NCBI GenBank assembly: GCA_913056365.1
Contig: CAJXLT010000005.1
Coordinates: forward strand, 62,001 to 126,000
Direction: 5' to 3'
Source: an uncultured Paenibacillaceae bacterium
Lineage (GTDB): Bacteria; Bacillota; Bacilli; Paenibacillales; K13
DNA length: 64,000 nucleotides
The notes under the pieces were generated by a model that had not been told where the DNA came from, made no database searches, and was given only the letters and a program-made list of their open reading frames with translations. The translations under genes and the position numbers were made by a program. Positions 6,342 through 39,300 of the stretch are shown here, one piece after another; the stretch's first letter is position 1; every line of letters begins with the position of its first letter.

Positions 6342-7441
6342 CAGGCGTCCACCTCCCCTACTACAATATCGATACCGCCGAGTATAGTAATCAGGTTCGT
6401 CATCGACTCACCGACCAGCAGCTTCGGCAATATTTGCAAATTAACGAACGAAGGACGTCGGAACTTCAAGCGATAAGGTTCCGCCTTGCCTTCTGACACG
6501 AGATGGCAGCCGATCTCGCCGCGCGGTGATTCGATCGCCACATAGGCTTCACCCTTCGGCGGACGAATGACGCGAGGCACCTTGCCCATAATTTCCCCTT
6601 CTTCTGGGAATTGCTCCAACGCTTGATCCAGAATGCGCAAGCTCTGGCGAATTTCCTCCAAGCGAATTTCGTAACGCGCCAGGCAATCACCTTCTGTCCG
6701 GGTGATCACATCGAAGTCGAAGCGGTCGTACAGGCTATACGGCTGTGACTTGCGAAGATCCCAATCTACGCCGGTACAACGCAAGTTCGCTCCGCTCAAT
6801 CCATAATCAATCGCTGTCTGCGCGTCATATCGGCCAACACCCTTAATGCGGGCGAGGAAAATTTCATTGCCGCTCACGAGATTGTGATATTCGCCTAGCT
6901 TCTCCTTCATATGCGCCACGAATGCTTTGACCTTGTCGATCCAGCCTTCCGGCGCATCCCACTTCACTCCGCCTACACGCATGTAGAAGTAAGTTAAGCG
7001 CGCGCCGCACAGCTCATTGAACAGGTCGATAATCATCTCCCGTTCACGGAACGCATACAAGAACGGACTCATCGCGCCAATATCGAGCAAGTAGGTGCCC
7101 CACCAGACGAGATGACTCGCGACTCGCTGCAACTCCATAACAATAAGGCGCAAGTATTCCGCGCGCTCTGGAATTTCAAGCTCAAGCAACGTCTCTACCG
7201 CATGAACGAGCACATAATTGTTCGTCATGGCCGACACATAATCCATTCGGTCCGTATACGGGATGATCTGCGTATAGTTCAAGTTCTCCGCAAGCTTCTC
7301 TGTGCCTCTATGTAAGTAGCCCATCACCGGGTCTGCATGAATAATCTGCTCGCCGTCCAGCTTCACGACGACGCGGAATACTCCATGCGTGCTCGGATGC
7401 TGGGGACCTACATTCAGCAGCATTTCTTCAGTTCTTATCAT
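6341..7441 (-). CDS. nuoD: NADH-quinone oxidoreductase subunit D
   Basis: 49-kDa-type subunit related to the large subunit of NiFe hydrogenases; with NuoB it forms the quinone reduction site. The hallmark NVGPQHPSTHGVFR lies near the N-terminus, and the C-terminus ends in the usual ILGGIDIVVGEVD. I chose ATG 7441 because GGAGGTG precedes it at the right distance and it directly follows the nuoC stop. A longer frame to 7504 would run back into nuoC. The product is 366 residues. The C and D subunits are separate here, not fused. Confidence 0.95.
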   Translation of the reverse strand: MIRTEEMLLNVGPQHPSTHGVFRVVVKLDGEQIIHADPVMGYLHRGTEKLAENLNYTQIIPYTDRMDYVSAMTNNYVLVHAVETLLELEIPERAEYLRLIVMELQRVASHLVWWGTYLLDIGAMSPFLYAFREREMIIDLFNELCGARLTYFYMRVGGVKWDAPEGWIDKVKAFVAHMKEKLGEYHNLVSGNEIFLARIKGVGRYDAQTAIDYGLSGANLRCTGVDWDLRKSQPYSLYDRFDFDVITRTEGDCLARYEIRLEEIRQSLRILDQALEQFPEEGEIMGKVPRVIRPPKGEAYVAIESPRGEIGCHLVSEGKAEPYRLKFRRPSFVNLQILPKLLVGESMTNLITILGGIDIVVGEVDA

Positions 7442-7445
7442 CGGG

Positions 7446-8351
7446 TTACACCTCCGGATCCGCAGGACTGTAGTCTTTGCGCAGCGGATAGCCTTCCCAG
7501 TCATCCGCCATCATAATGCGACGCAGGTCTGGATGTCCCGGAAAGTCAACGCCGAGCAGGTCATAAATTTCGCGTTCCGGCCAATTCGCTGTACTCCACA
7601 CGGGTGTAGCAGACGGCACAGCAGGCTGATCACGATCTGTCTTGACCTTAACAGCATAATCCTGCTTCGTCTCCAGATTGATCAGCTGATAGATCACTTC
7701 CATGTGCGTCTCGCGATCGACTCCCGTCACATTGCGCAAGTAGTGCAGCTTCAGCTCAGCATGGTCGCGAAGGATCGTTGCCACCTCTGTCCAGAAGTCT
7801 GCCTTCACGATGACAGTCGGCAGATGACGACTCGCTTCGTTCACATAAGCTTCTTCGATCGCATCAGCACCCGCGTGCTCCTTCAGGATGTCAACAAGCC
7901 GGTCGAGCACAGGCTGCTTCGGCGACGGCTCCTTCGGCTTCTCTTCTTCCTCTGCCTTCTTCTTAGCTCGTTCTGCAGCTCTTGCTGCACGCGCTTCAGC
8001 AGCGGCTTTCTTCTTCGCAGCCGCCTCGTCATCGCCGTCAGCCGCTTGCTCAGAAGCCTTCTTCTCTGGTTTCTCTGCGTTATCCGGCTTCTCAGCCTTA
8101 GCAGCCTTATCCGCTTCCTCATGCTTCTCAGCCTTTGCTTCAGCAGCCGGATTCTGGTTCTCCAGCGCACGCTCAGCTGCGTCCTTATTCGGTGTTGCTT
8201 TGCCAGATGGTTCGACATGCACTTCACCGTCTGTCTGCGCAGACGAATCTTCCTTCGGCTCCTCCTGTTGCTTATCTTGCTCGTTGGCTTCGCGTTCGGC
8301 TTCACGATTGGACGCTTGTTCAGACTCGCGCTTCTTGTTCTCTTCGCTCAC
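7446..8351 (-). CDS. nuoC: NADH-quinone oxidoreductase subunit C with long charged N-terminal extension
   Basis: 30-kDa-type peripheral subunit of complex I. Only about residues 145-301 resemble NuoC, with the typical ending containing [20 protein letters not shown] and the terminal YPLRKDYS. Residues 1-145 form a low-complexity region dominated by Glu, Lys, Ala and Gln, with no Cys or Trp and no clear domain. It is probably a disordered or helical extension. The stop lies 4 nt before nuoD, and the start overlaps the end of nuoB by 4 nt. The function of the extension is unknown. Confidence 0.93.
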
Positions 8352-8866
8352 CGTTCGGTCACCCGCTTCCCTGTTTTCGCTTCATAGCGAATTTTCTCTT
8401 GCAGCTTATTGATACCGTAGATCAACGCAGCCGGATTAGGCGGGCAGCCCGGGATGTACACATCGACCGGAACTACCTGGTCCACCCCTTTCACCACAGC
8501 ATAGGACTTCACATAAGGACCGCCTGCTGTAGCGCAGGAGCCCATCGCAATCACCCACTTCGGCTCAGGCATTTGATCATACAGGCGGCGCAGCAAAGGA
8601 GCCATTTTCTTCGTGACGGTACCCGCAACAATCATACAGTCTGATTGACGCGGCGACGTACGGAAGATGACTCCGAATCTGTCCAGGTCATAGTGGGAAG
8701 CACCCGTGCCCATCATTTCGATCGCGCAGCACGCCAAGCCGAATGTCATTGGCCATAGGGAATTGCTACGTGCCCATCCCTTCAATTGCTCCAGTGTTCC
8801 AAAAAAAACGTTGCGCTCAAGCTCCTGGCGCTCGGCCAGTGAGATTTTCTCTAGATCGAGTTCCAT
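8348..8866 (-). CDS. nuoB: NADH-quinone oxidoreductase subunit B (cluster N2)
   Basis: Carries the terminal 4Fe-4S cluster N2, which reduces quinone. Counted from the start chosen here, the four ligands are Cys46, Cys47, Cys111 and Cys141, in the motifs [16 protein letters not shown] and PGCPPNP. I prefer ATG 8866 (AAGAAGGTG upstream, family-typical start) over ATG 8887. The gene overlaps the end of nuoA by 16 nt. The length of 172 residues is normal. Confidence 0.96.
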
Positions 8867-9216
8867 TTGAACACCTTCTTCTTCCAAGCGTAGATTAAGC
8901 CCACTGCGAGCAGGCTAACGAAAATCAACATCTCCACCAGTGCGAACAATCCGAGCTTGTCATAAGCGACTGCCCATGGATAGAGAAACACCGTCTCCAC
9001 ATCGAACACAACGAACATCAGCGCATACAGATAATAGCGGATATTAAACCTTACCTGGCCTTCGCCTACCGGTTCATTCCCGCTCTCGTACGTGGTCTGC
9101 TTCTGCTCTGTCGGTTTGGTAGGACGCAGGAATCTGCCGAGTGTCAAAGCCGCAATCGGCAATATGATTCCCAATGATAAGAAAACTAGCACTACTACAT
9201 ACTCTCCAGCATGCAT
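8851..9216 (-). CDS. nuoA: NADH-quinone oxidoreductase subunit A
   Basis: First gene of the nuo operon, a 121-residue membrane protein with three helices. The conserved segment [20 protein letters not shown], followed by [14 protein letters not shown], identifies it. An AGGAGGG ribosome site lies upstream of ATG 9216. A possible promoter is about 145 nt upstream. No nuoE, nuoF or nuoG genes occur between or before these genes. Confidence 0.96.
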
Positions 9217-9358
9217 CGGTACAGTGTCCCTCCTTCGACTTTCGGATCTTCTTCATCCCCCGAGCGGTTGCGGGTAGCAGCATAGCTGCCGCATCACTCT
9301 TCACTTGTTCTTCATTCATGTATACGCATTCTATACCTACATAATAAATACCGTCACA

Positions 9359-9388
9359 ATTATAACAAACGTGCCCTGAATTCGTCTA
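9359..9388 (-). promoter_or_regulatory. Candidate sigma-A promoter of the nuo operon
   Basis: On the minus strand TAGACG (9388-9383) is followed after 18 nt by a perfect TATAAT (9364-9359), about 145 nt before nuoA. The -35 box is weak. The 9217-9559 gap otherwise holds only this element and the atp terminator. Confidence 0.5.
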
Positions 9389-9502
9389 TCGTCGATTGTA
9401 AGCGATTTAATAGGAAAATTTATGGTCTTCCTATAGTTTGTCCTTTTTTCACACTATGTATCAGGTGATCTGCTTCGGCCTGCCGCCAATCCTAGATGAA
9501 CA

Positions 9503-9544
9503 AAGCCCCTGCACCTTGGATCATCTCCTTGGTAGCAGGGGCTT
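9503..9544 (-). terminator. Probable terminator of the atp operon
   Basis: Perfect 10-bp inverted repeat (AAGCCCCTGC / GCAGGGGCTT) starting about 16 nt after the atpC stop, followed on the minus strand by a short T-rich stretch (TTTGTT). It separates atp from nuo transcription. Confidence 0.75.
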
Positions 9545-9559
9545 GTAAATCAGATGACA

Positions 9560-9961
9560 CTAACTGCGTTGGGAAACGTCAAGACGTGTCAGGGCCTTCT
9601 GCAAAGCGATCTCAGCACGGCGGAAATCTACTTCCTGCTGACGGCTTTGCAAGCGCTTCTCCGCTCGTTCCTTGGCAGCGCGCGCACGATCTACATCAAT
9701 CTCAGTTGGCTTCTCGGCCGACTCTGCAAGAATCGTTATCTTATCCTTGCGCACTTCGAGGAATCCGCCGCCAACGGCGATATATACCTCTTGGCCTTCA
9801 CTCTTAATGCGCACCGGAGCAACACGCAGCGGTGTGACTAACGGAATGTGATTCGGCAGAATGCCTAGCTCACCTTCAGCGCCGCGCACGCTTACCATAT
9901 TGACCGGTTCACTATATACGATCCGTTCTGGGGTAACTATCTCCAGCAATACAGTACTCAT
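9560..9961 (-). CDS. atpC: F1 ATP synthase epsilon subunit
   Basis: Central-stalk regulatory subunit of ATP synthase, 133 residues. The N-terminal beta-sandwich contains [19 protein letters not shown], and the C-terminal two-helix part is charged. It is last in the atp operon, 35 nt after atpD, and ends just before a terminator hairpin. Confidence 0.96.
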
Positions 9962-9996
9962 CGTTCCACCCTCCTCTTAGCTTAGGCGTTGCAGCA

Positions 9997-11421
<1,425 letters not shown>

Positions 11422-11494
11422 TTAAACAATTATGCCGATACCGCCTCCGCTGCACGCGTGCATGCGGCAGCCGGAAGCAGTCTACATGTATCCT

Positions 11495-12358
11495 CTACAG
11501 TGCGTTCGCACCTGCAACAATCTCGGAAATCTCCTGCGTAATCGCTGCCTGACGCGCACGGTTGTGCTGCAGCTTCAAGGAGTTGATCATCTCGTTCGCA
11601 TTGCGTGTCGCATTGCCCATCGCAGTCATACGGGCACCGAACTCACTCGCTTTGCCTTCGAGCAGCGCACTGTATATGAGTGTTTCGGCATAGCGAGGAA
11701 GCAATACGTCCAAGACGCCTTCAGCCGACGGCTCATATTCATATTGCGCTGACGGACCGTCTCCTTGCTCTTCGACCTGATCTAGCGGCAGCAGCTGCTT
11801 GATCACAGGCACTTGCGAGATGACGCTCTGGAACTGGTTATAAACCAAGTACAGTTCGTCATAAGCGCCATTCTCAAAGTTGCTGACGCTCGCTCTCGCA
11901 ATACTCTTAATGTCCTGGAAGGTCGGAGCATCCGGCAAGCCGGTCACTTCCTCTACGATCGGCATCTCACGCTTGCGGAAGAAGTCCCGTCCCTTGCGGC
12001 CGATAACGAACAGAGAATATTCATCCTTCGATGAGTGATTCGCTTGAATCGTCTGCATCAGCATGCGCAGCAAGTTATTATTGTAGCCGCCAGCGAGTCC
12101 GCGATCGGAAGTAATGACCAAATAGCCGGTCTTGCGGATTTCCCGTTTTTGCAGCATAGGGTGCGTTACGCCTTGCGTGCCAGCAGCAATGTTCGCAATC
12201 ACTTCTTTGATCTTGTCTGCGTAAGGGCGTGCCGCTTCCGCGCTCTGCTGAGAACGTCTCAGCTTGGATGCGGCAACCATCTCCATCGCTTTCGTGATCT
12301 GTCTCGTGTTTTGCTTGCTCTTGATCTGGCGTTTGATTTCGCGTATTCCTTTAGCCAT
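11495..12358 (-). CDS. atpG: F1 ATP synthase gamma subunit
   Basis: Rotor shaft of F1, 287 residues. The N-terminal helix KGIREIKRQIKSKQNTRQIT and the C-terminal helix with MGNATRNANEMI are the conserved coiled-coil parts. It lies between atpA and atpD as usual. The middle domain contains a short acidic segment near 200-215 (QVEEQGDGPS), a tolerated variable loop. Confidence 0.97.
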   Translation of the reverse strand: MAKGIREIKRQIKSKQNTRQITKAMEMVAASKLRRSQQSAEAARPYADKIKEVIANIAAGTQGVTHPMLQKREIRKTGYLVITSDRGLAGGYNNNLLRMLMQTIQANHSSKDEYSLFVIGRKGRDFFRKREMPIVEEVTGLPDAPTFQDIKSIARASVSNFENGAYDELYLVYNQFQSVISQVPVIKQLLPLDQVEEQGDGPSAQYEYEPSAEGVLDVLLPRYAETLIYSALLEGKASEFGARMTAMGNATRNANEMINSLKLQHNRARQAAITQEISEIVAGANAL

Positions 12359-12377
12359 TTAGCTCACCACGTTTCCG

Positions 12378-13901
<1,524 letters not shown>

Positions 13902-29311: not shown

Positions 29312-29767
29312 ATGGCAAACTACGAAACAGATGATCAATCATTATCTCTCAAGCTCTTCGTCGTACTGTCCAAAGCACACAAAGTCATGATGGAGATAAG
29401 TGCCAAGGATGTTCGCAAGCATGGATTATCCTTAACAGAATTCGCTGTCCTAGAGCTTCTCCACCACAAGGGTGAAGTGCCGTTACAGCAGATTGCAAGT
29501 AAAATACTCCTCACAAGCGGCAGCATCACCTATGTTGCTGACAAACTGGAGAACAAAGGGTTCTTACAACGCAAGCCATGCAAGAATGATCGTCGCGTCA
29601 CCTATGCTGCTCTTACGGACAAAGGTCAAGAGCTGTTCCATAATATTTTCCCAGATCACGCCAAGTTCATTCAATCGGCAATGAGCACGTTATCTGCAGA
29701 AGAGAAGCAGGTCGCCATCACACTCATCAAGCGACTTGGTCAGGATGTGCAGCGTCGCTACTCTTAA
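29312..29767 (+). CDS. MarR-family regulator, MhqR-like
   Basis: Winged-helix transcription factor of 151 residues. The DNA-binding region contains LTEFAVLELLHHKGEVPLQQ and SGSITYVADKLENKGFLQRK, then the wing KPCKNDRRVTYAALT. The sequence reminds me strongly of MhqR-type repressors that respond to quinones. It has only two cysteines, and the usual redox Cys of OhrR-type sensors is not obvious. It follows tadA after 33 nt. Its last 41 nt overlap the convergent gene at 29727. The target genes are unknown. Confidence 0.85.
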   Translation: MANYETDDQSLSLKLFVVLSKAHKVMMEISAKDVRKHGLSLTEFAVLELLHHKGEVPLQQIASKILLTSGSITYVADKLENKGFLQRKPCKNDRRVTYAALTDKGQELFHNIFPDHAKFIQSAMSTLSAEEKQVAITLIKRLGQDVQRRYS

Positions 29768-30683
29768 TAGGAGTAAGCTGGCGCGGAAAGACTGGTCGTA
29801 TCAGCATCTCGATATCCTCCCTGTATACGAGCGTTCCGCAAGCTTGCAACAAACCTTTGCCCAGATCGATCGGGTTCATATTGAATCGCCTTAGCCATTG
29901 ATACATAAATTCATCCACATACCGCTGCCGATGGCGCTCGCTGACCCGTCGGTAAGCGGCACGAATATATGCCTTTGCCTTGCTCACAAGCAAGCTCCGG
30001 CATCTCTGCAATAACACGTCTCGTTGTTCCTTCTCTCCTTCTTGCTCGCTAGAGGAATGGTTATGGCGGCCTTCTTCTTCTTCCACAATGGAAGACAGCA
30101 TATGCCTGCCATTAGACATCCGCATCGCAGCTCGAATGACGTGTAGCATCCTTAATGCAGTACGATATTGAACTTGTAATACAGCAGCTAGTCGATTGGC
30201 AGTGCAGTGTCGGTCAACAGCAACCCAATATATAGTGAAGAACCAATATGCAAGCGGCAGTTTCGTACCGTGGAAAAACGTATGTGCTGTTACGGACACT
30301 TGGTTACTGCAATTTGTACATTCGTATAACTTCCTAGTCTGGATGTAGTAATAATCATGTTCTGCACAGCACGGACAGACGAAACCGCCGGGCCATCTTA
30401 AGTAGAACAGAGCCTGCCGGCAAGCTTCTTCTTCGCGGAAGCGTTCCATAAACTCCTTCATACTGCATAATATTTCATCTGATAGCAGCTTCTTGCCCGC
30501 AGCAGCATCAGCCGGTGTATGCCACTTCATGTTATGCATAGCTAATTTGTTAAGCCACGATTCAACTTGGAATACGGCTGATTTAGGTACGTGCGTATCA
30601 TCTGATGATGCTTCAATGCGGTGTGATTCCGCAATTATTCCGTTATGTGAAGATTGTATTGTATCAGACCTCGAATTCAGCAT
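29727..30683 (-). CDS. IS1595-type zinc-ribbon protein lacking the transposase catalytic core
   Basis: About 318 residues. Counted from GTG 30692, a zinc ribbon lies at 96-130 (Cys106, Cys109, Cys125, Cys128), followed by the helix-turn-helix-like segment FHGTKLPLAYWFFTIYWVAV and a region up to RAAMRMSNGRHMLSSIVEEE. In IS1595 transposases this last part is followed by the first catalytic Asp and the DDE domain. Here it passes into a short Ser/Glu/His-rich linker and then to AAYRRVSERHRQRYVDEFMY, which resembles the very C-terminus of those transposases. The frame is open, without stops. No terminal inverted repeats were found. ATG 30683 was chosen over GTG 30692; spacing is imperfect for both. 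Confidence 0.72.
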   Translation of the reverse strand: MLNSRSDTIQSSHNGIIAESHRIEASSDDTHVPKSAVFQVESWLNKLAMHNMKWHTPADAAAGKKLLSDEILCSMKEFMERFREEEACRQALFYLRWPGGFVCPCCAEHDYYYIQTRKLYECTNCSNQVSVTAHTFFHGTKLPLAYWFFTIYWVAVDRHCTANRLAAVLQVQYRTALRMLHVIRAAMRMSNGRHMLSSIVEEEEGRHNHSSSEQEGEKEQRDVLLQRCRSLLVSKAKAYIRAAYRRVSERHRQRYVDEFMYQWLRRFNMNPIDLGKGLLQACGTLVYREDIEMLIRPVFPRQLTPIKSSDAAHPDQVA

Positions 30684-30842
30684 ATGAATCACACTCTCCT
30701 TCTCTGCGTGCCAAGAAGATTGCAGTCATCGCCAAGTTGTAGCACATATGTACTTCCTCGTTGCTCACGCTTTATTCTTAAACTCATTATATCGAACATA
30801 CGTTCTTATTTCAACTGTTTTTTTATTTATTTTGGTGCAGGT

Positions 30843-32242: not shown

Positions 32243-33316
32243 ATGCAAAAAACGGACGGCATGTTTTACGCGCCGAAAGGATTGAAGAGAGCTGTTGTGA
32301 ATCGCGGGGAATTCGCCATCGCAGCGGTTGCATTGGATCATGGTCATATCTACGGTATGTGCAACGGACTGTTGGAAGCAGGAGCAACGTTGAAATGGGT
32401 ATATGATCCAGACCCGCACAAGGTAGCGGCATTTCTTCAGCGCTTTCCAGAGGCGAAGCCCGCAGAGAATGAACAAATCATTCTGCAGGACGACGAGGTA
32501 CAACTTGTTGCCGGAGCAGCCATTCCTTCTGAGCGCTGTGCACTCGGTCTTCGCGCTATCGCACATGGCAAAGACTATTTCACTGACAAGGCCCCTGTTA
32601 CAACCTTAGAGCAACTCGAGCTAGCTCGCCGCGCCACCGCCAACACCGGACGCAAATACATGGTGTATTACAGCGAACGATTGCATGTGGAAAGCGCGAT
32701 CTATGCAGAGCAGCTAATTCGCGATGATGCGATTGGTCGAGTCATTCAAGTAATCGGACTTGGACCGCACCGATTGAACGCTGCATCGCGACCGGAGTGG
32801 TTTTATAGCCGCCAGCATACAGGCGGCATTCTGTGTGATCTGGGCAGCCATCAGATCGAGCAGTTCCTTACATACGCTGGATGCCAAGATGCCCAAGTGC
32901 TGCACAGCAAGGTGGCGAACTATCATCACAAGGAACATCCGGGGCTGGAGGATTTCGGCGATGCAACATTACTGGGTGACAATGGCGCCAACCATTATTT
33001 CCGCGTGGACTGGTTTACGCCCGACGGATTAAGTACTTGGGGGGATGGACGCACGGTCATCCTCGGCACCAAAGGCTACATCGAGCTGCGCAAGTATACA
33101 GATATCGCACGAGCGCAGGAAGGCGATCATCTATATCTGGTTGATCATTCTGGCGAGCATCTGCTTAAGCTGTCTGGCCAAGTAGGGTATCCATTCTTCG
33201 GTCAATTGATACTCGATTGCTTGAATAGAACAGAGAACGCTATGACGCAAGCTCATGCCTTCAAAGCAGCCGAACTAAGCCTGCTTGCCCAGCAACATGC
33301 CATCCGAATAGAATAA
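32243..33316 (+). CDS. Gfo/Idh/MocA-family oxidoreductase
   Basis: NAD(P)-dependent sugar or cyclitol dehydrogenase family, 357 residues. The N-terminal Rossmann part includes AAVALDHGHIYGMCNGLLEAG and the TDKAPVTT segment, which corresponds to the family EKP motif with Asp for Glu. The C-terminal domain has TGGILCDLGSHQIEQFL, including the conserved Asp and His. ATG 32243 was chosen for the AAGGAGGGG site; an upstream extension to 32213 is unlikely. It is first in a same-strand group with the LarA-like and uronate-isomerase-like genes. Substrate unknown. Confidence 0.85.
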   Translation: MQKTDGMFYAPKGLKRAVVNRGEFAIAAVALDHGHIYGMCNGLLEAGATLKWVYDPDPHKVAAFLQRFPEAKPAENEQIILQDDEVQLVAGAAIPSERCALGLRAIAHGKDYFTDKAPVTTLEQLELARRATANTGRKYMVYYSERLHVESAIYAEQLIRDDAIGRVIQVIGLGPHRLNAASRPEWFYSRQHTGGILCDLGSHQIEQFLTYAGCQDAQVLHSKVANYHHKEHPGLEDFGDATLLGDNGANHYFRVDWFTPDGLSTWGDGRTVILGTKGYIELRKYTDIARAQEGDHLYLVDHSGEHLLKLSGQVGYPFFGQLILDCLNRTENAMTQAHAFKAAELSLLAQQHAIRIE

Positions 33317-33410
33317 GCAACTCAGCCGACTTGAACCTAATTTAGAAGGAATACATACAATCTATACCTGTGTTACGTACGTGAGCACTATAACAGAAGG
33401 AGATATGGAC

Positions 33411-34679
33411 ATGAATCTTACTCAAATGTTAGCCCCGATCCCGCTGCCGCCGATGGTGAAGATCCGCCAGAAATTTGATGACACTCGACTGGACAATCCA
33501 GCTGGAGAATTGAAGCAGAAGCTTGCGCATTCTCCTGAACTTACACGCATACTGCCCGGTCAGCAGATCGCTGTCGTAGCTGGCAGCCGCGGTATTGCCA
33601 ACTTGGCAGCTATGACCAAGGAACTCATTGATGCGATTCGCTCACGCGGCGCCGAGCCTTTCATCGTACCCGGCATGGGCAGCCATGGCGGCGCAACCGC
33701 AGACGGACAGCGCCGTGTTCTGGAGCACCTCGGCATTAGTGAAGCGAGCATGGGCGCGCCTATTCGATCCTCTATGGACGTAGTCGAGGTGGACCGACTG
33801 GACAACGGCTTACCCGTCTATGCCGATGCAATAGCTACCGATGCAGACGGTATAGTATTCATTAACCGGATCAAGCCTCACACCGCTTTTCGAGGCCGTA
33901 TTGAAAGCGGCTTGATGAAGATGATTGCCATCGGTCTCGGTAAGCAAAAAGGCGCAGAAGCTTGCCACCAACTAGGCTTCAAATATATGGCGGAAAATGT
34001 GCCGACGATGGCCAACATTCTTATTCAGAAGCTGCCTATCTTATTTGGCGTAGGTATTGTAGAGAATGCCTATGACCAAACCTGCCGTATTGAGGTCATA
34101 GCAGCGGAAGAGATAGAAGCCCGAGAGCCCGAGCTTCTAGAGGAAGCCAAATCACGCATGCCGCGTCTTCCCTTCGAGCAGCTAGACGTGCTCGTTATCG
34201 ATTATATCGGTAAGAATATTAGCGGAGACGGAATGGACCCTAATGTTACCGGACGCTATCCGACACCTTATGCACATGGAGGTCCAGACGTAGCGAAGAT
34301 GGTCGTGCTGGACTTGACTGAACAATCTCAAGGCAATGCCAACGGTGTGGGTACGGCTGACTTCACAACCCGCAGATTCGTTGACAAGGCAGATTGGCCG
34401 GCTACTTATGCCAATGGATTAACCTCCACTGTGTGCGCGCCAACGAAGATGGCAACTGTGTTGGAAAGCGATCGCGATGCAATCAAAGCAGCGGTCAAAA
34501 CTTGCAACATCCTCGACTACACAACATGCAGATTAGTTCGAATCCAAGACACTTTGCATGTAGGACAATTGGAGATCTCCGTCCCGCTGCTGGCGGAAGC
34601 ACAACGAATCCCCGGCATTGAAATAATAGGAGATTCCTATGAGTGGACCTTCGACAGCAACGGATATTTGACGAAGTAA
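33411..34679 (+). CDS. LarA-like nickel-pincer racemase/epimerase homologue (DUF2088)
   Basis: 423 residues. Motifs typical of the lactate-racemase family are visible: PGMGSHGGATADGQRRVLEH in the N-terminal domain, then RIKPHTAFRGRIESGLMKM and KQKGAEACHQLG. Several His and Lys positions correspond to likely cofactor and substrate ligands. Family members interconvert 2-hydroxy acids using the nickel-pincer nucleotide cofactor made by LarBCE; no larB, larC or larE is in this window. ATG 33411 is placed 8 nt after AAGGAGAT. It is followed at 17 nt by the uronate-isomerase-like gene. The substrate is probably a sugar acid, by context. Confidence 0.72.
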   Translation: MNLTQMLAPIPLPPMVKIRQKFDDTRLDNPAGELKQKLAHSPELTRILPGQQIAVVAGSRGIANLAAMTKELIDAIRSRGAEPFIVPGMGSHGGATADGQRRVLEHLGISEASMGAPIRSSMDVVEVDRLDNGLPVYADAIATDADGIVFINRIKPHTAFRGRIESGLMKMIAIGLGKQKGAEACHQLGFKYMAENVPTMANILIQKLPILFGVGIVENAYDQTCRIEVIAAEEIEAREPELLEEAKSRMPRLPFEQLDVLVIDYIGKNISGDGMDPNVTGRYPTPYAHGGPDVAKMVVLDLTEQSQGNANGVGTADFTTRRFVDKADWPATYANGLTSTVCAPTKMATVLESDRDAIKAAVKTCNILDYTTCRLVRIQDTLHVGQLEISVPLLAEAQRIPGIEIIGDSYEWTFDSNGYLTK

Positions 34680-34696
34680 AGGAGCGGTCTTACACT

Positions 34697-35962
34697 ATGA
34701 CAACTGCGATTACCTCTGCTGGAGAACTAGCAGCTTACATCAGACAGACCGTACAAGAAGCCCCGATTACGGATATGCACACACATTTGTATGCGCCAGA
34801 ATTCGGCAACCACCTTCTCTGGGGTATCGATGAGCTGCTTACGTATCATTATCTAGTTGCAGAAGCCTTCCGCTGGACGGATACAGATGAGCCGTACGAG
34901 CAATTTTGGACGCTTTCGAAATCTGAGCAGGCTGATTTCATCTGGAAGAAGTTGTTTCTGGCACATACGCCTTTAAGCGAAGCAGCAAGCGGTGTGCTTC
35001 AAGTATTGCACACGATGGGACTCGATGTTGGCAGCAGAGATTTGAACGCGTACCGCCGGCAGTGGGCCGACCGATCCCCGCAGCAACAGATCGATGCCGT
35101 CTTCCGTCTCGCTGGAGTGCAAGAGGTCGTCATGACCAACGATCCGTTCGATCCGGCTGAACGCGCACTGTGGCTGAATGGGCATGGCAAGGAGGATACG
35201 CGCTTCCACGCTGCCTTGCGAGTTGATCCCTTACTTAACAATTGGGAAGAAGCGGTCCTCGCATTGCTTCAGATGGGCTATCAAGTAGAGACGGCATGGA
35301 CCGAACAGACGATTAAAGAAACACAACGTTTCCTCAGGGAGTGGGTCCTGCGTATGGATGCACTTTATTTGGCTGTTTCCATGCCCGGGGACTTTCGCTA
35401 TCCAGCAGCGGATCATCGTACTCGGATGATTGATGATGTGATGATTCCAATCTGTCAAGAGCTAGACATTCCGTTTGCCCTGATGATCGGCGTTCGCCGC
35501 CAGGTCAACCCCGAGCTGAAGCTAGCAGGCGACATGAGCATGCTATCCGATGTCTCATCAGTCGAATCACTCTGCCGCAAGTATCCACAGCAGAAATTCC
35601 TTGTAACGATGCTTGCAAGAGAAAATCAACATGAGCTTGCCGTTCTGGCACGCAAATTTCGTAACTTGATGGTATTCGGCTGCTGGTGGTTCCTGAACAT
35701 TGCGTCCATCATAGAGGAAATGACCGCCCTCCGAATCGAGCTACTAGGCACAAGCGTCATTCCACAGCATTCCGATGCAAGAATTTTGGAGCAACTTATA
35801 TACAAATGGGGGCATTCCCGTGAGATTATAGCCGAAATTCTTATTGAAAAATACAGCAAACTCCAACGTGTGGGGTGGACAGCGACCCGCGAGGAGATCA
35901 AACGAGATGTCGATGATCTGTTCAGTCGTAATTTTTGGCGATTCCTCGGAAAATCCCGATGA
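34697..35962 (+). CDS. Uronate-isomerase-like metal-dependent hydrolase
   Basis: 421 residues. The N-terminal metal motif ITDMHTHLYAPEFG is followed by WGIDELLTYHYLVAEAFRWT, as in glucuronate isomerase (UxaC) relatives. The later segments EVVMTNDPFDP and VFGCWWFLNIASI also fit this superfamily. ATG 34697 follows AAAGGAGCGG. It is somewhat shorter than true UxaC (about 470 residues), so it may act on a related aldonate or uronate. Third gene of the cassette. The end is followed by repeat cluster C. Confidence 0.78.
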   Translation: MTTAITSAGELAAYIRQTVQEAPITDMHTHLYAPEFGNHLLWGIDELLTYHYLVAEAFRWTDTDEPYEQFWTLSKSEQADFIWKKLFLAHTPLSEAASGVLQVLHTMGLDVGSRDLNAYRRQWADRSPQQQIDAVFRLAGVQEVVMTNDPFDPAERALWLNGHGKEDTRFHAALRVDPLLNNWEEAVLALLQMGYQVETAWTEQTIKETQRFLREWVLRMDALYLAVSMPGDFRYPAADHRTRMIDDVMIPICQELDIPFALMIGVRRQVNPELKLAGDMSMLSDVSSVESLCRKYPQQKFLVTMLARENQHELAVLARKFRNLMVFGCWWFLNIASIIEEMTALRIELLGTSVIPQHSDARILEQLIYKWGHSREIIAEILIEKYSKLQRVGWTATREEIKRDVDDLFSRNFWRFLGKSR

Positions 35963-36018: not shown

Positions 36019-36314
36019 TTCCTGAGTGTGATGCCTATATAGCTTTCGTTGCTGCTTTCTGAGCCGTGGTGCCTATGTGGCTCTATCGTAGTATCCTGAG
36101 CGTGGTGCCTATATGGCTCTGTTCCTGCTTCCTGAGTGTGATGCCTATATCGTTGTCTGCTCACTTCCTGAGCGTGATGCCTATATGGCTCTGTCGTTGG
36201 TTCCTGAGTGTGGTGCCTATTAGTCACACTATGGTCAGGTTCGGTCTGCAGATAGATATGTTACCTGTTACTTCAAAGGTGCTGACACCGTTATGTGCAT
36301 CACACTCAGGAAGT
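36019..36314 (+). repeat. Intergenic repeat cluster C: six 36-bp tandem units plus an inverted copy
   Basis: Units with core TTCCTGAGTGTGATGCCTAT start at about 36019, 36057, 36093, 36129, 36165 and 36201 (periods 38, 36, 36, 36, 36). An inverted copy, GTGCATCACACTCAGGAAG, lies at 36295-36313. The array fills the 421-bp gap between two convergent genes. Because 36 is divisible by 3, both strands give open frames with 12-residue periodicity (for example YRHHTQE on the minus strand). I regard these as by-products, not genes. Confidence 0.88.
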
Positions 36315-36383: not shown

Positions 36384-39300
36384 TCAGAATGAGCTTGGCC
36401 AAAAGACAAGTGCTGTCCGGTCGCGCTCGGCTCCTTGCTGTTGCAGGGCTTCTCCGGCTTCGCATTCAGCGGCAGGATCGCCGTTCCAGGTTTCGATTCG
36501 AATTTTCTTCAATCCGCGCGTGCGCAATATTTGTTGCAGCGCCTGCTTGATCGCATGTACTTCATCTTCATCTCCCCCACGAGTGTGGGGATTGAGGCAT
36601 GTGATTTTTTTGCCGTTCTGCTCAATCCAGGTTGCCCAGCTTCCGTGCCGAAACAGCAAGTAGTGGCCGTGCTTTCGGCTGAAGGTGAGCCTGTCAATAT
36701 GCGGCCAGGCGACCCAAATGCCGTAGGGATTGACCGGATCTACTGCGGATATCAAGCAAGAAGGTTGCTTAGATGATCGATGTTCGTCGGTCTGGTGGAT
36801 GATGGTTGCTTGATGATCGTCGGTCCGCTGTATGGTTGCTCGATGACCGTCGGTCTGCTGAATGGTTGCTTGGTCGTCGCCGGTCAGTTGGATGGCTGCT
36901 TGGTAATCACCGATTTGCTGAATGCTCACTTGTGGACGGTGTCGACCAAGCTGTTCTGCTGTTTCCTTAGACATCCACTGCAAGGTTTCGGCTCCTTCGA
37001 TGAAGAAGCCGCGCACTGCGTGCCCCCATTCTTCCAGCTGCCGATACACTGCCTGCAGCGTATCCCAGGAATACGGCGCAGAAGCGGCGACTTCGCGGGA
37101 GACGATACCAAATTGGCGCAGCAGATGCGCCGCCCATTCTGAAGCGCTTGCTGAATCGTCGAATACTTCAGGGGCGTCAGAGGTGCGCAGCACGAACCAA
37201 CGACCTTGTCCAGAGCCAGAACGAGTGAAGTCTCCCCCACGCCGCGTCCCTTGCAGGCGTAACGGCGCAAATTGATCGTTGGAGACGTGTCCTTCCCAGA
37301 CGAGCTCCATGAGTGCCGACAACGTATCGGACGGAGCCATGCCGCGAACACGAGCAAGCTCGGTTAGAAAGCTGGCGCCGCGCGCTTGCAGCTGCTCGAG
37401 CAGCTCGGGGTGCTTCGTTTCGCGCTCCTGCTTAAGGAAGGGGCGGTATAGCGCTTCGGCTTCGCGCAGGAAGAAGGCAACTGTCCCTTCCCGAGCCTGC
37501 GGCTCCTTGCGCCCGATCCAGATAATCGCACCCGCTGCGCACAGCTCATCCAGATCACGCTTCCGATAGTCCTTCAAGCGAGCGGGGAAGATCAAGCTTT
37601 CCCAATGGGAGAGCGGGAAGAACAACCCTTGCAAGCGCCGAATAATCTGCAGCAGTCCAGCACTGCCTGCAGCTTGACTGTCCGGCAGCAACCCGTGCTC
37701 GCGCATGAGATGTGCGCACCACACCTCTGGCGTGACGGGCTCTGCACTACTCCGGACTACATGCAACGATGCGCGCAGTAGCCGGTTGGCTATCTTCGTG
37801 CTCATCCACTGATCCGGCTCGCCCGTTGTCTCCGCCAATGCAGCGAACGGCGCTGCCTCAACCCTGCCTTGCTCCACTTGCGCAAGCACCCAACGGTCCA
37901 CGACGGCCGAATCCAAACCATATCGTTCTATTAATTCTTGCTTCGTAAAGGACATCTGCTGCTCGATATATCGGGTGAGAACAAGCGCTTGAGCTTGAGG
38001 CGATGCTGCCAGTTCAGCATAGACCTGCTCCTCATCCATGCATATCCAGCGCTGCGCCTGATCGAATGCCCGCAGCTTGATTCGCTGCTGGTCTAGCTGC
38101 TTCACCCAATCTTGAATATGAGCTGGCTGCTCCGATCCGGAACGAACGACCCGCTGCAGCTCCGCTTCTGACAGGTCACCGCGCTTCTTGAGCAGTGCAT
38201 ATACGGCTTCCGCGCTATTGACTTCTCTTGCTTCGTGCTCCAAGTGTTGACGCACTTCTTCCCACGCTTGCTCGGGCACGGCATTCCGCCAAGTATCAGC
38301 ACCAAGCAAGCGCGCGGCCGATTCCCGTTGCACATGAAGTAGCTGTGCTTGCAGCTCCGGGCCGAATGTGTCGGCTTCGTATATACGGGTATTCACGTAA
38401 TCCGCCAGAAATTGCGAGGCGAATGGCGAAGGCATATCCGTATGTACGACCTTCACCTGCAAGCTCCCCGTTTCCATATCGCGCAACGCTTCCAGCAGCC
38501 GCGGCAAGTCGGACCATTCCTGCAAGCAATGCTGCAGTGCTGCATCCAATAACGGAAATTCGCTTGCATAAGGGAGCGCATCCTTCAGTAATTCCTCACT
38601 TCGCAATCGCTGCTGCCACATGGGAACACGGCTGTATCCTTTGGATAGGAGCAGCGAGGTTTCGGCCATGCGTCGGAACGTTACGGCGAACATCGCGCTG
38701 CCAGCAAGCGCTTCGCGCAGCAATGCCTCCGCATTACCAGCGTTCACCTCCCAGAACAAGGGCAACCAGGAGTCATTCCATTCCGGGAAGACGAATTCTA
38801 CTCCGTTATTCTTCGCATTCGTGTATATGCGGTACGACAACGATTGCTGGAGCTTCTGTTCGACGGCCATCATCCAGGCGCGATTCACTTGAAGTCCCCA
38901 TACGGTATGCAAGACGACGTGCATCTTGTTGTCTACATCGCGGAAGCACTCTAAGACAACTTGCCCGTTCGTAGCAATCGGGCACACGTGCAGCTGTCGT
39001 ACGAATAGAGCTGCCAGCTGCTCCGCAGCCTGCGGCTCCATGGCGTAGCGCTCTGTTAGCCAGCCTTCTGCCGCTTGCACATTGTGCGCTACCTTCTCGC
39101 TTAGCTGCTCGTGGAAGTGCCCGAGTCTCTTGCCGAGCGCATAGGAACGTCCTGCGGCCTCGGATCGCCAGAACGGGATTTCGCTGTACGGGTTGCGCAC
39201 TTCTGTTACCCAGATTCGATCTGGGTCCATTCTGCGGATCATCCAAGCCTGCGCACCCAGCTGGAATACATCGCCCGGGCGGCTCTCCTGCACATATTCT

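Follow-up and report, generated by a model that had tools for sequence, protein, structure and literature searches.

A group-22 LarA homologue as candidate D-mannonate/D-gluconate 2-epimerase in a rearranged hexuronate gene cluster of a Paenibacillaceae bacterium

Which sugar acid would be converted by three adjacent genes that encode an oxidoreductase, a LarA homologue and a uronate isomerase relative? This question is raised by a stretch of 64,000 nucleotides from an uncultured Paenibacillaceae bacterium (assembly GCA_913056365.1, contig CAJXLT010000005.1), hereafter called the window, which corresponds to C5:62001-126000 of a 4.65-Mb, 34-contig genome. Our analysis of the LarA homologue, its relatives and their gene neighbourhoods suggests, with a probability of about two in three, that LarA proteins of this clade would act as D-mannonate/D-gluconate 2-epimerases in hexuronate catabolism, and on the sequence comparisons made here the window locus is best read as a rearranged piece of a conserved hexuronate-degradation gene cluster. 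The original prediction had suggested a possible new sugar-acid pathway with an open substrate. The class of substrate, uronate or aldonate, fits the neighbourhoods, and the choice of substrate can be narrowed to D-mannonate/D-gluconate, but the claim of novelty was not sustained, since the pathway idea has already been published (PMC6978723, PMC7583248; here and below, statements from papers cited by PMC number refer to the parts available to us). The features concerned are the following.

32243 to 33316, plus strand: GFO, a Gfo/Idh/MocA-family oxidoreductase of 357 amino acids, recognized by Pfam and structure-chain sequence matches
33411 to 34679, plus strand: the LarA homologue, NCBIfam group 22, 422 amino acids, recognized by profile score, residues and fold
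34680 to 34696, plus strand: the LarA-URO junction of 17 bases, where the sister species has an SDR gene between LarA and URO
34697 to 35962, plus strand: URO, a BH0493-type uronate isomerase of 421 amino acids, recognized by matches to BH0493 structure chains

The window LarA scores 564 bits against NF052515, 'nickel pincer cofactor-dependent isomerase, group 22' (cut-off 400), which is matched above cut-off in 85 of the 398 genomes sampled from the phylum; the window protein is thus a member of a family whose name states no reaction, and from which one clade, defined by context, is split off here with a proposed substrate. According to its predicted structure (mean pLDDT 93.6, pTM 0.88) the protein has the two-domain LarA fold: all 18 Foldseek matches at E <0.001 were LarA-family chains, and in the VIA list for the model twelve LarA-family entries at Z 19.8-22.0 (9eid at 22.0) were followed by an unrelated entry at 6.1. 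A sequence search of the PDB with the single protein was empty, and a 44-row LarA profile matched no PDB chain at E 1. Seven residues, R60, H92, K155, H157, K170, H186 and K268, are invariant in 44/44 aligned group-22 proteins. When matched by their order and spacing rather than by superposition of coordinates, R60, H92, H157, K170, H186 and K268 correspond to LarA R75, H108, H174, K184, H200 and K298, which comprise two catalytic histidines (H108, H174), the nickel-binding H200, the cofactor residues K184 and R75 and the catalytic lysine K298 (PMC7583248), while K155 has no named partner in LarA. The column of Asp72, with its register taken from the D72-R75 spacing and not from superposed coordinates, holds Ala or Val in 43/44 and Cys in 1/44. 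The LarA enzymes of Lactiplantibacillus plantarum (5HUQ/6C1W) and Isosphaera pallida (9EIA/9EID) resemble the window protein in fold (Z 19.8-22.0) and, by order and spacing, in the two catalytic histidines, the nickel histidine and the cofactor lysine and arginine, whereas they differ in overall sequence (about 13-14% identity), in the Asp72-register residue, which is Ala/Val in the window protein and its relatives, and in the substrate loop. A LarA-like protein deprived of its cofactor residues, the outcome that would have overturned the original prediction, was ruled out by the 44/44 conservation of the key residues. Membership in the single-histidine LarA subfamily (LarA-Bw/LarA-Sp, with Asn for the second catalytic histidine), for which possible carbohydrate roles are described (PMC12611868), was likewise ruled out, as H157 is present in 44/44.

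The proposed substrate derives from gene neighbourhoods. For each of 84,980 species a single genome was scanned, and the best 80 of 219 LarA relatives found (67-74% identity) were kept. Among these best 80 loci, a fructuronate-reductase-like SDR (called at at least 48% identity to the SDR of locus L048) and an FGGY kinase were each found in 77/80 and a 6-phosphogluconate dehydrogenase (6PGDH) in 66/80, followed by larE (14), larB (13), larC (13), URO (10), UxaE (5) and GFO (1). The shortfall in SDR and kinase is made up by L033, which has no partner at all, L058 and L065, which are short contigs, and L066, where the kinase was not called. The L005 kinase scores 677.6 against the gluconokinase model, above its cut-off of 648.6, and the 6PGDH of this locus likewise exceeds its own (774.3 over 413). 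Pfam confirmed the UxaE genes of L046 and L061, with 655 and 670 bits (cut-off 27.1). Further regions beyond these 80 were taken by score from a phylum sample or by interest. Two genomes of the phylum sample (L129 and L185) have the order uxaC-gnd-LarA-SDR-kinase (in L129 uxaC 617 over 387, gnd 783 over 413), an annotated record of Paenibacillus cellulositrophicus has zwf-fsa-gndA, further genes and then uxaC-larA-SDR-larE-larB-larC1-larC2, and Niallia taxi has a UxaC-like open reading frame (ORF), LarA, SDR, larE, larB and larC in two pieces; another Niallia taxi ORF looks by eye like a nickel permease, but no Pfam model confirmed this. Since both UxaC and URO are found together with LarA and SDR, two types of uronate isomerase accompany the same LarA-SDR pair.

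Mannonate and gluconate are named mainly because one locus, L250 (genome G501), has a mannonate dehydratase where the LarA loci have LarA, gluconokinase and 6PGDH. Its genes run in the order Gfo, GFO, TIM-barrel, AraC, URO (61% identity), SDR (66%), mannonate dehydratase (uxuA TIGR00695, 388.4 over 199.6) and amidohydrolase, with no LarA in the 15-kb region. When UxuA of the window genome was searched by tblastn against the loci collected at that stage, only L250 and loci of the window genome itself were matched. Most simply, the product of the L250 SDR would be mannonate, feeding the dehydratase.

In the pathway that we propose, URO would, by homology, convert D-glucuronate to D-fructuronate, which a fructuronate reductase would reduce to D-mannonate; this reductase would be the operon SDR in the relatives and, in the window genome, either a UxuB-like SDR encoded on contig C2 or perhaps GFO. 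The group-22 LarA, with a nickel-pincer cofactor supplied by LarB, LarC and LarE encoded on contig C8, would then invert carbon 2 of D-mannonate to give D-gluconate, presumably via proton-coupled hydride transfer between its two histidines. Finally, a gluconokinase, for which there is a candidate on contig C2, followed by 6PGDH would lead from gluconate to ribulose-5-phosphate and thus into the pentose-phosphate route.

The neighbourhoods also separate by phylogeny. A quick maximum-likelihood tree was built from 60 rows, hand-picked to span contexts and including 16 of the 80 named loci, so that its fractions do not describe a random sample; in it, 26 rows including the window form a clade (SH-aLRT 98). 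An SDR lies near LarA in 23/26 rows of the clade (all save the window, L131 and L033) versus 0/34 outside it, and a uronate isomerase in 9/26 versus 0/34. Outside the clade, IlvD/Edd, UxaA-like, KDG kinase and KDPG aldolase genes accompany LarA in several rows, while many rows lack the markers that were sought. All 23 aligned clade members (23/23) share T158, A159, Y283, T285, Y287, T315, F318, G336, P344, T345 and T349. Among the 21 other aligned group-22 proteins most of these positions are variable, although T158 also occurs in 18/21; A159 is in the loop directly after the second catalytic histidine. Because these residues are common to the clade and mostly variable elsewhere, a single substrate within the clade is likely. 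The window genome has a second group-22 copy on contig C2 (529 bits against the NF052515 cut-off of 400), which falls outside the clade. Its locus (L123, G000:C2:522000-541500; 6560-13201) also contains an amidohydrolase gene, PdxA, a D-threonate-kinase-like DUF1537 gene (268 bits, below the cut-off of 450) and, by eye, a LacI-type regulator and an aldo/keto reductase, and this copy is a possible four-carbon sugar-acid epimerase.

The third gene had been read from the raw sequence as a uronate isomerase relative, and this was upheld, Pfam being silent at E 0.001: with E values of 5.5e-162 to 1.2e-161, URO matches structures of BH0493 uronate isomerase, among them 2qee, 2pnk and 2q08 with 3hk5, and one of the matched PDB molecules is named 'Uronate isomerase'. 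BH0493 catalyzes D-glucuronate/D-galacturonate isomerization, and isomerases of its type may accept both glucuronate and galacturonate. With BH0493 of Bacillus halodurans the window protein shares full-length sequence (phmmer, 542.8 bits, residues 20-438 of the 439-amino-acid ORF) and the HxH and HSD motifs, which are kept in 15/15 aligned relatives. Within this alignment the URO proteins encoded in LarA loci, ten of which were aligned with the window protein at 63-82% identity, are separate from four copies at 56-57%. One of these four is the second BH0493-type isomerase of the window genome (56% identity), encoded on contig C1 and flanked by a UxaE gene (661.5 bits) and a GH88-family gene (L124, G000:C1:132500-152400; 7687-12352), in what is likely a pectin/galacturonate locus. 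Two further BH0493-type isomerases, both at 57% identity, were found in genome G426 (L172 and L173), one beside a UxaE-like ORF read by eye and the other not, a contrast that hints at a further specificity split within the family. A plasmid search with URO was empty.

How, then, does the window relate to the more complete clusters? In a sister species (G398) the same site, between lhr/methylase and deoC, carries AraC-LarA-SDR-URO, with LarA and URO 87% and 82% identical to their window counterparts, and GFO is unmatched in this species at E 1e-60, whereas the window order is GFO-LarA-URO, without SDR. The reductase and kinase may be supplied from elsewhere in the window genome, or the reduction may now be carried out by GFO. 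The nearest SDR in this genome, on contig C2, is UxuB-like, is 45% identical to the operon SDR and adjoins uxuA, and a kinase on the same contig scores 575.8 bits versus the gluconokinase cut-off of 648.6. The search for larB, larC and larE that had been recommended with the original prediction found all three together on contig C8 (LarE 359.6 bits, cut-off 150; LarB 299.9, cut-off 175; LarC as two pieces that score 311.7 and 162.3, cut-off 22.1). There (L125, G000:C8:33000-50500) the LarC pieces lie tail to tail on opposite strands, the C-part at 6961-7473 on the plus strand and the N-part, with a His-rich tail, at 7809-8816 on the minus strand, while the two pieces point in the same direction in Niallia and P. 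cellulositrophicus; a search for inverted repeats around larC in the window genome found one 18-base pair of arms only, inside the N-part.

GFO itself matches GFO_IDH_MocA_C3 (PF22725, 59.9 bits, cut-off 27) and PF02894 (38.6, cut-off 22.9), as well as the structure chains 2p2s (E 2.1e-115) and 3u3x (E 3.7e-82); the Pfam model of the N-terminal Rossmann domain was not matched at E 0.001. Its K116, D199 and H203, which we take to be the catalytic residues of the Gfo/Idh/MocA family, are invariant in 5/5 aligned proteins. GFO matches occur in 169/198 genomes of the order, and 20 GFO neighbourhoods from this order, picked from the list of GFO genomes and mostly near its top, served as control. 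They contained one SDR, one URO and neither FGGY kinase, 6PGDH nor LarA; the usual company of GFO was a second Gfo/Idh/MocA gene (10/20), a xylose-isomerase-like TIM barrel (7/20) and an AraC regulator (5/20). The idea of the trio as a conserved unit consequently had to be given up, as GFO is absent from the sister site, is spread order-wide and had LarA nearby in 0/20 and URO in 1/20 of these loci; the trio is not a unit, but its core of LarA and uronate isomerase survives. GFO adjoins URO in L048 and lies two genes from URO in L250. We considered GFO as a plain fructuronate reductase of the operon and did not adopt this view, since both loci also have an SDR and GFO would be unneeded there; in the window locus, judging from its genes, it could possibly stand in for the missing fructuronate reductase.

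Several observations weigh against a mannonate/gluconate epimerase. The experimentally tested GntE enzymes (groups 19 and 20) carry E and then V/S after the second catalytic histidine (PMC11770544, PMC7583248), a signature that the window LarA does not have, its loop at this point being T158-A159, with T-A in 23/23 clade members. Most of the 80 LarA loci come from one genus and their counts are thus not independent. The SDRs score 260-271 (L005 264.6) versus the cut-off of 281 for 'D-mannonate oxidoreductase' and do not formally pass under that name, and the kinases of L048 (566.9), L129 (448.8) and the window genome lie under the gluconokinase cut-off. The window operon has neither SDR nor kinase, L033 has none of the partners, and L131, inside the clade, is situated amid UxaA-like dehydratase, IlvD/Edd, KDG-kinase and KDPG-aldolase genes. 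Because uxuA and the UxuB-like SDR are present side by side in the window genome, a mannonate dehydratase route exists there, which would make the LarA route redundant. In addition, L127, L128 and L130 have LarA-SDR next to genes that by eye resemble ECF-transporter and oxaloacetate-decarboxylase genes, and no kinase or uronate isomerase was found in these loci, which may point to a different use of the LarA-SDR pair.

The kinases under the cut-off would allow for a mannonate kinase, which would first produce 6-phosphomannonate for LarA to epimerize to 6-phosphogluconate; with the L005 kinase passing the gluconokinase model and the LarA-type epimerases that have been tested using free mannonate (PMC7583248), this order of steps seems very unlikely. 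The company of L131 fits an inversion by the clade LarA at carbon 2 of another hexonate (e.g. altronate/allonate or L-gulonate/L-idonate), its neighbours serving several acids. Group 22 outside the clade is often found among such genes, the second copy of the window genome lies beside the threonate-kinase-like gene and PdxA, and BH0493-type isomerases may accept galacturonate as well as glucuronate. However, the clusters contain gluconokinase, 6PGDH and zwf, which indicate gluconate as the product, and uxaC, URO and UxaE converge on fructuronate/mannonate, so that we consider another hexonate improbable. The window locus might also be a decaying remnant, from which the SDR was lost and to which GFO came by chance, leaving the LarA step outside any working route in this strain. 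The intact set of the sister, without GFO, and the presence of uxuA and the UxuB-like SDR would agree with decay, but the three ORFs are open and closely spaced with a ribosome site each, the key residues of LarA are kept and larB, larC and larE persist, and a remnant is accordingly an unlikely explanation.

Epimerization of mannonate to gluconate is a reaction with precedent. It was proposed for Thermotoga maritima by Rodionova 2012, as described in PMC6978723, with gntE located between the fructuronate reductase and gluconate kinase genes, and interconversion of the two acids was shown for GntE1 and GntE2 (Desguin 2020, PMC7583248) as well as for LarAH15 and, with low kcat, LarAH10 (Urdiain-Arraiza 2024, PMC11770544). 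T. maritima GntE2/LarAH20 (4NAR) resembles the window LarA in its fold (Z 20.1 to 4nar) and in the proposed reaction, whereas the E-S/V loop, the assignment to a different LarA group and the absence of a sequence match set it apart, as do the partners of the window clade, namely UxaC/URO, SDR, 6PGDH and larEBC. The galacturonate pathway of Lactobacillus suebicus is similar in joining a uronate-isomerase route to 6-phosphogluconate but differs in that mannonate is phosphorylated first, by a kinase and with an epimerase whose genes are unknown (PMC6978723). A full-text literature search, in which few subscription journals were covered, revealed neither a test of group 22 nor a paper joining 'nickel-pincer' with 'glucuronate'. 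The pathway idea itself is in print, but group 22 stands at a large distance from those gluconate epimerases that have been tested and does not carry their loop signature.

Our results propose a testable reaction for a curated nickel-pincer group without an assigned one (NF052515) and indicate a possible substrate boundary inside group 22. If the assignment to mannonate/gluconate is correct, one hexuronate route in these bacteria would depend on nickel and larBCE, and the same mannonate/gluconate reaction would have been reached by two branches that lie far apart in the LarA superfamily. A more far-reaching version, which we regard as doubtful, is that the clade LarA evolved independently as a nickel-dependent mannonate/gluconate epimerase, a nickel-requiring by-pass of mannonate dehydratase in many Paenibacillaceae and some other Bacillota that takes hexuronates to ribulose-5-phosphate at no net redox cost, with GFO having replaced the SDR in the window species.

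As to the window locus itself, the account of three genes given in the original prediction was borne out, their families being confirmed and the plus-strand ORFs following end to end, each without an internal stop in the ORF listing. A purine-rich, ribosome-binding-like stretch precedes the ATG of each gene; for LarA the ATG at 33411 has a better ribosome site than the listed GTG at 33381, and for URO the ATG at 34697 has such a site, the ORF list giving GTG 34643. The trio is flanked on the opposite strand by deoC (DeoC/LacD aldolase family) upstream and an Lhr-type helicase gene downstream. The further statement that no transporter, kinase or aldolase is adjacent holds among the window ORFs for transporter and kinase and fails for the aldolase, since deoC is next upstream, if on the other strand. 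A promoter/terminator scan gave nothing above shuffled sequences. An ORF with an IS1595 transposase zinc-ribbon domain lies near the rearranged site, at 29730-30692 on the minus strand, and tandem repeats of about 36 bases (36019-36220, between URO and the helicase gene) and about 30 bases (36777-36902, within the helicase ORF) were observed.

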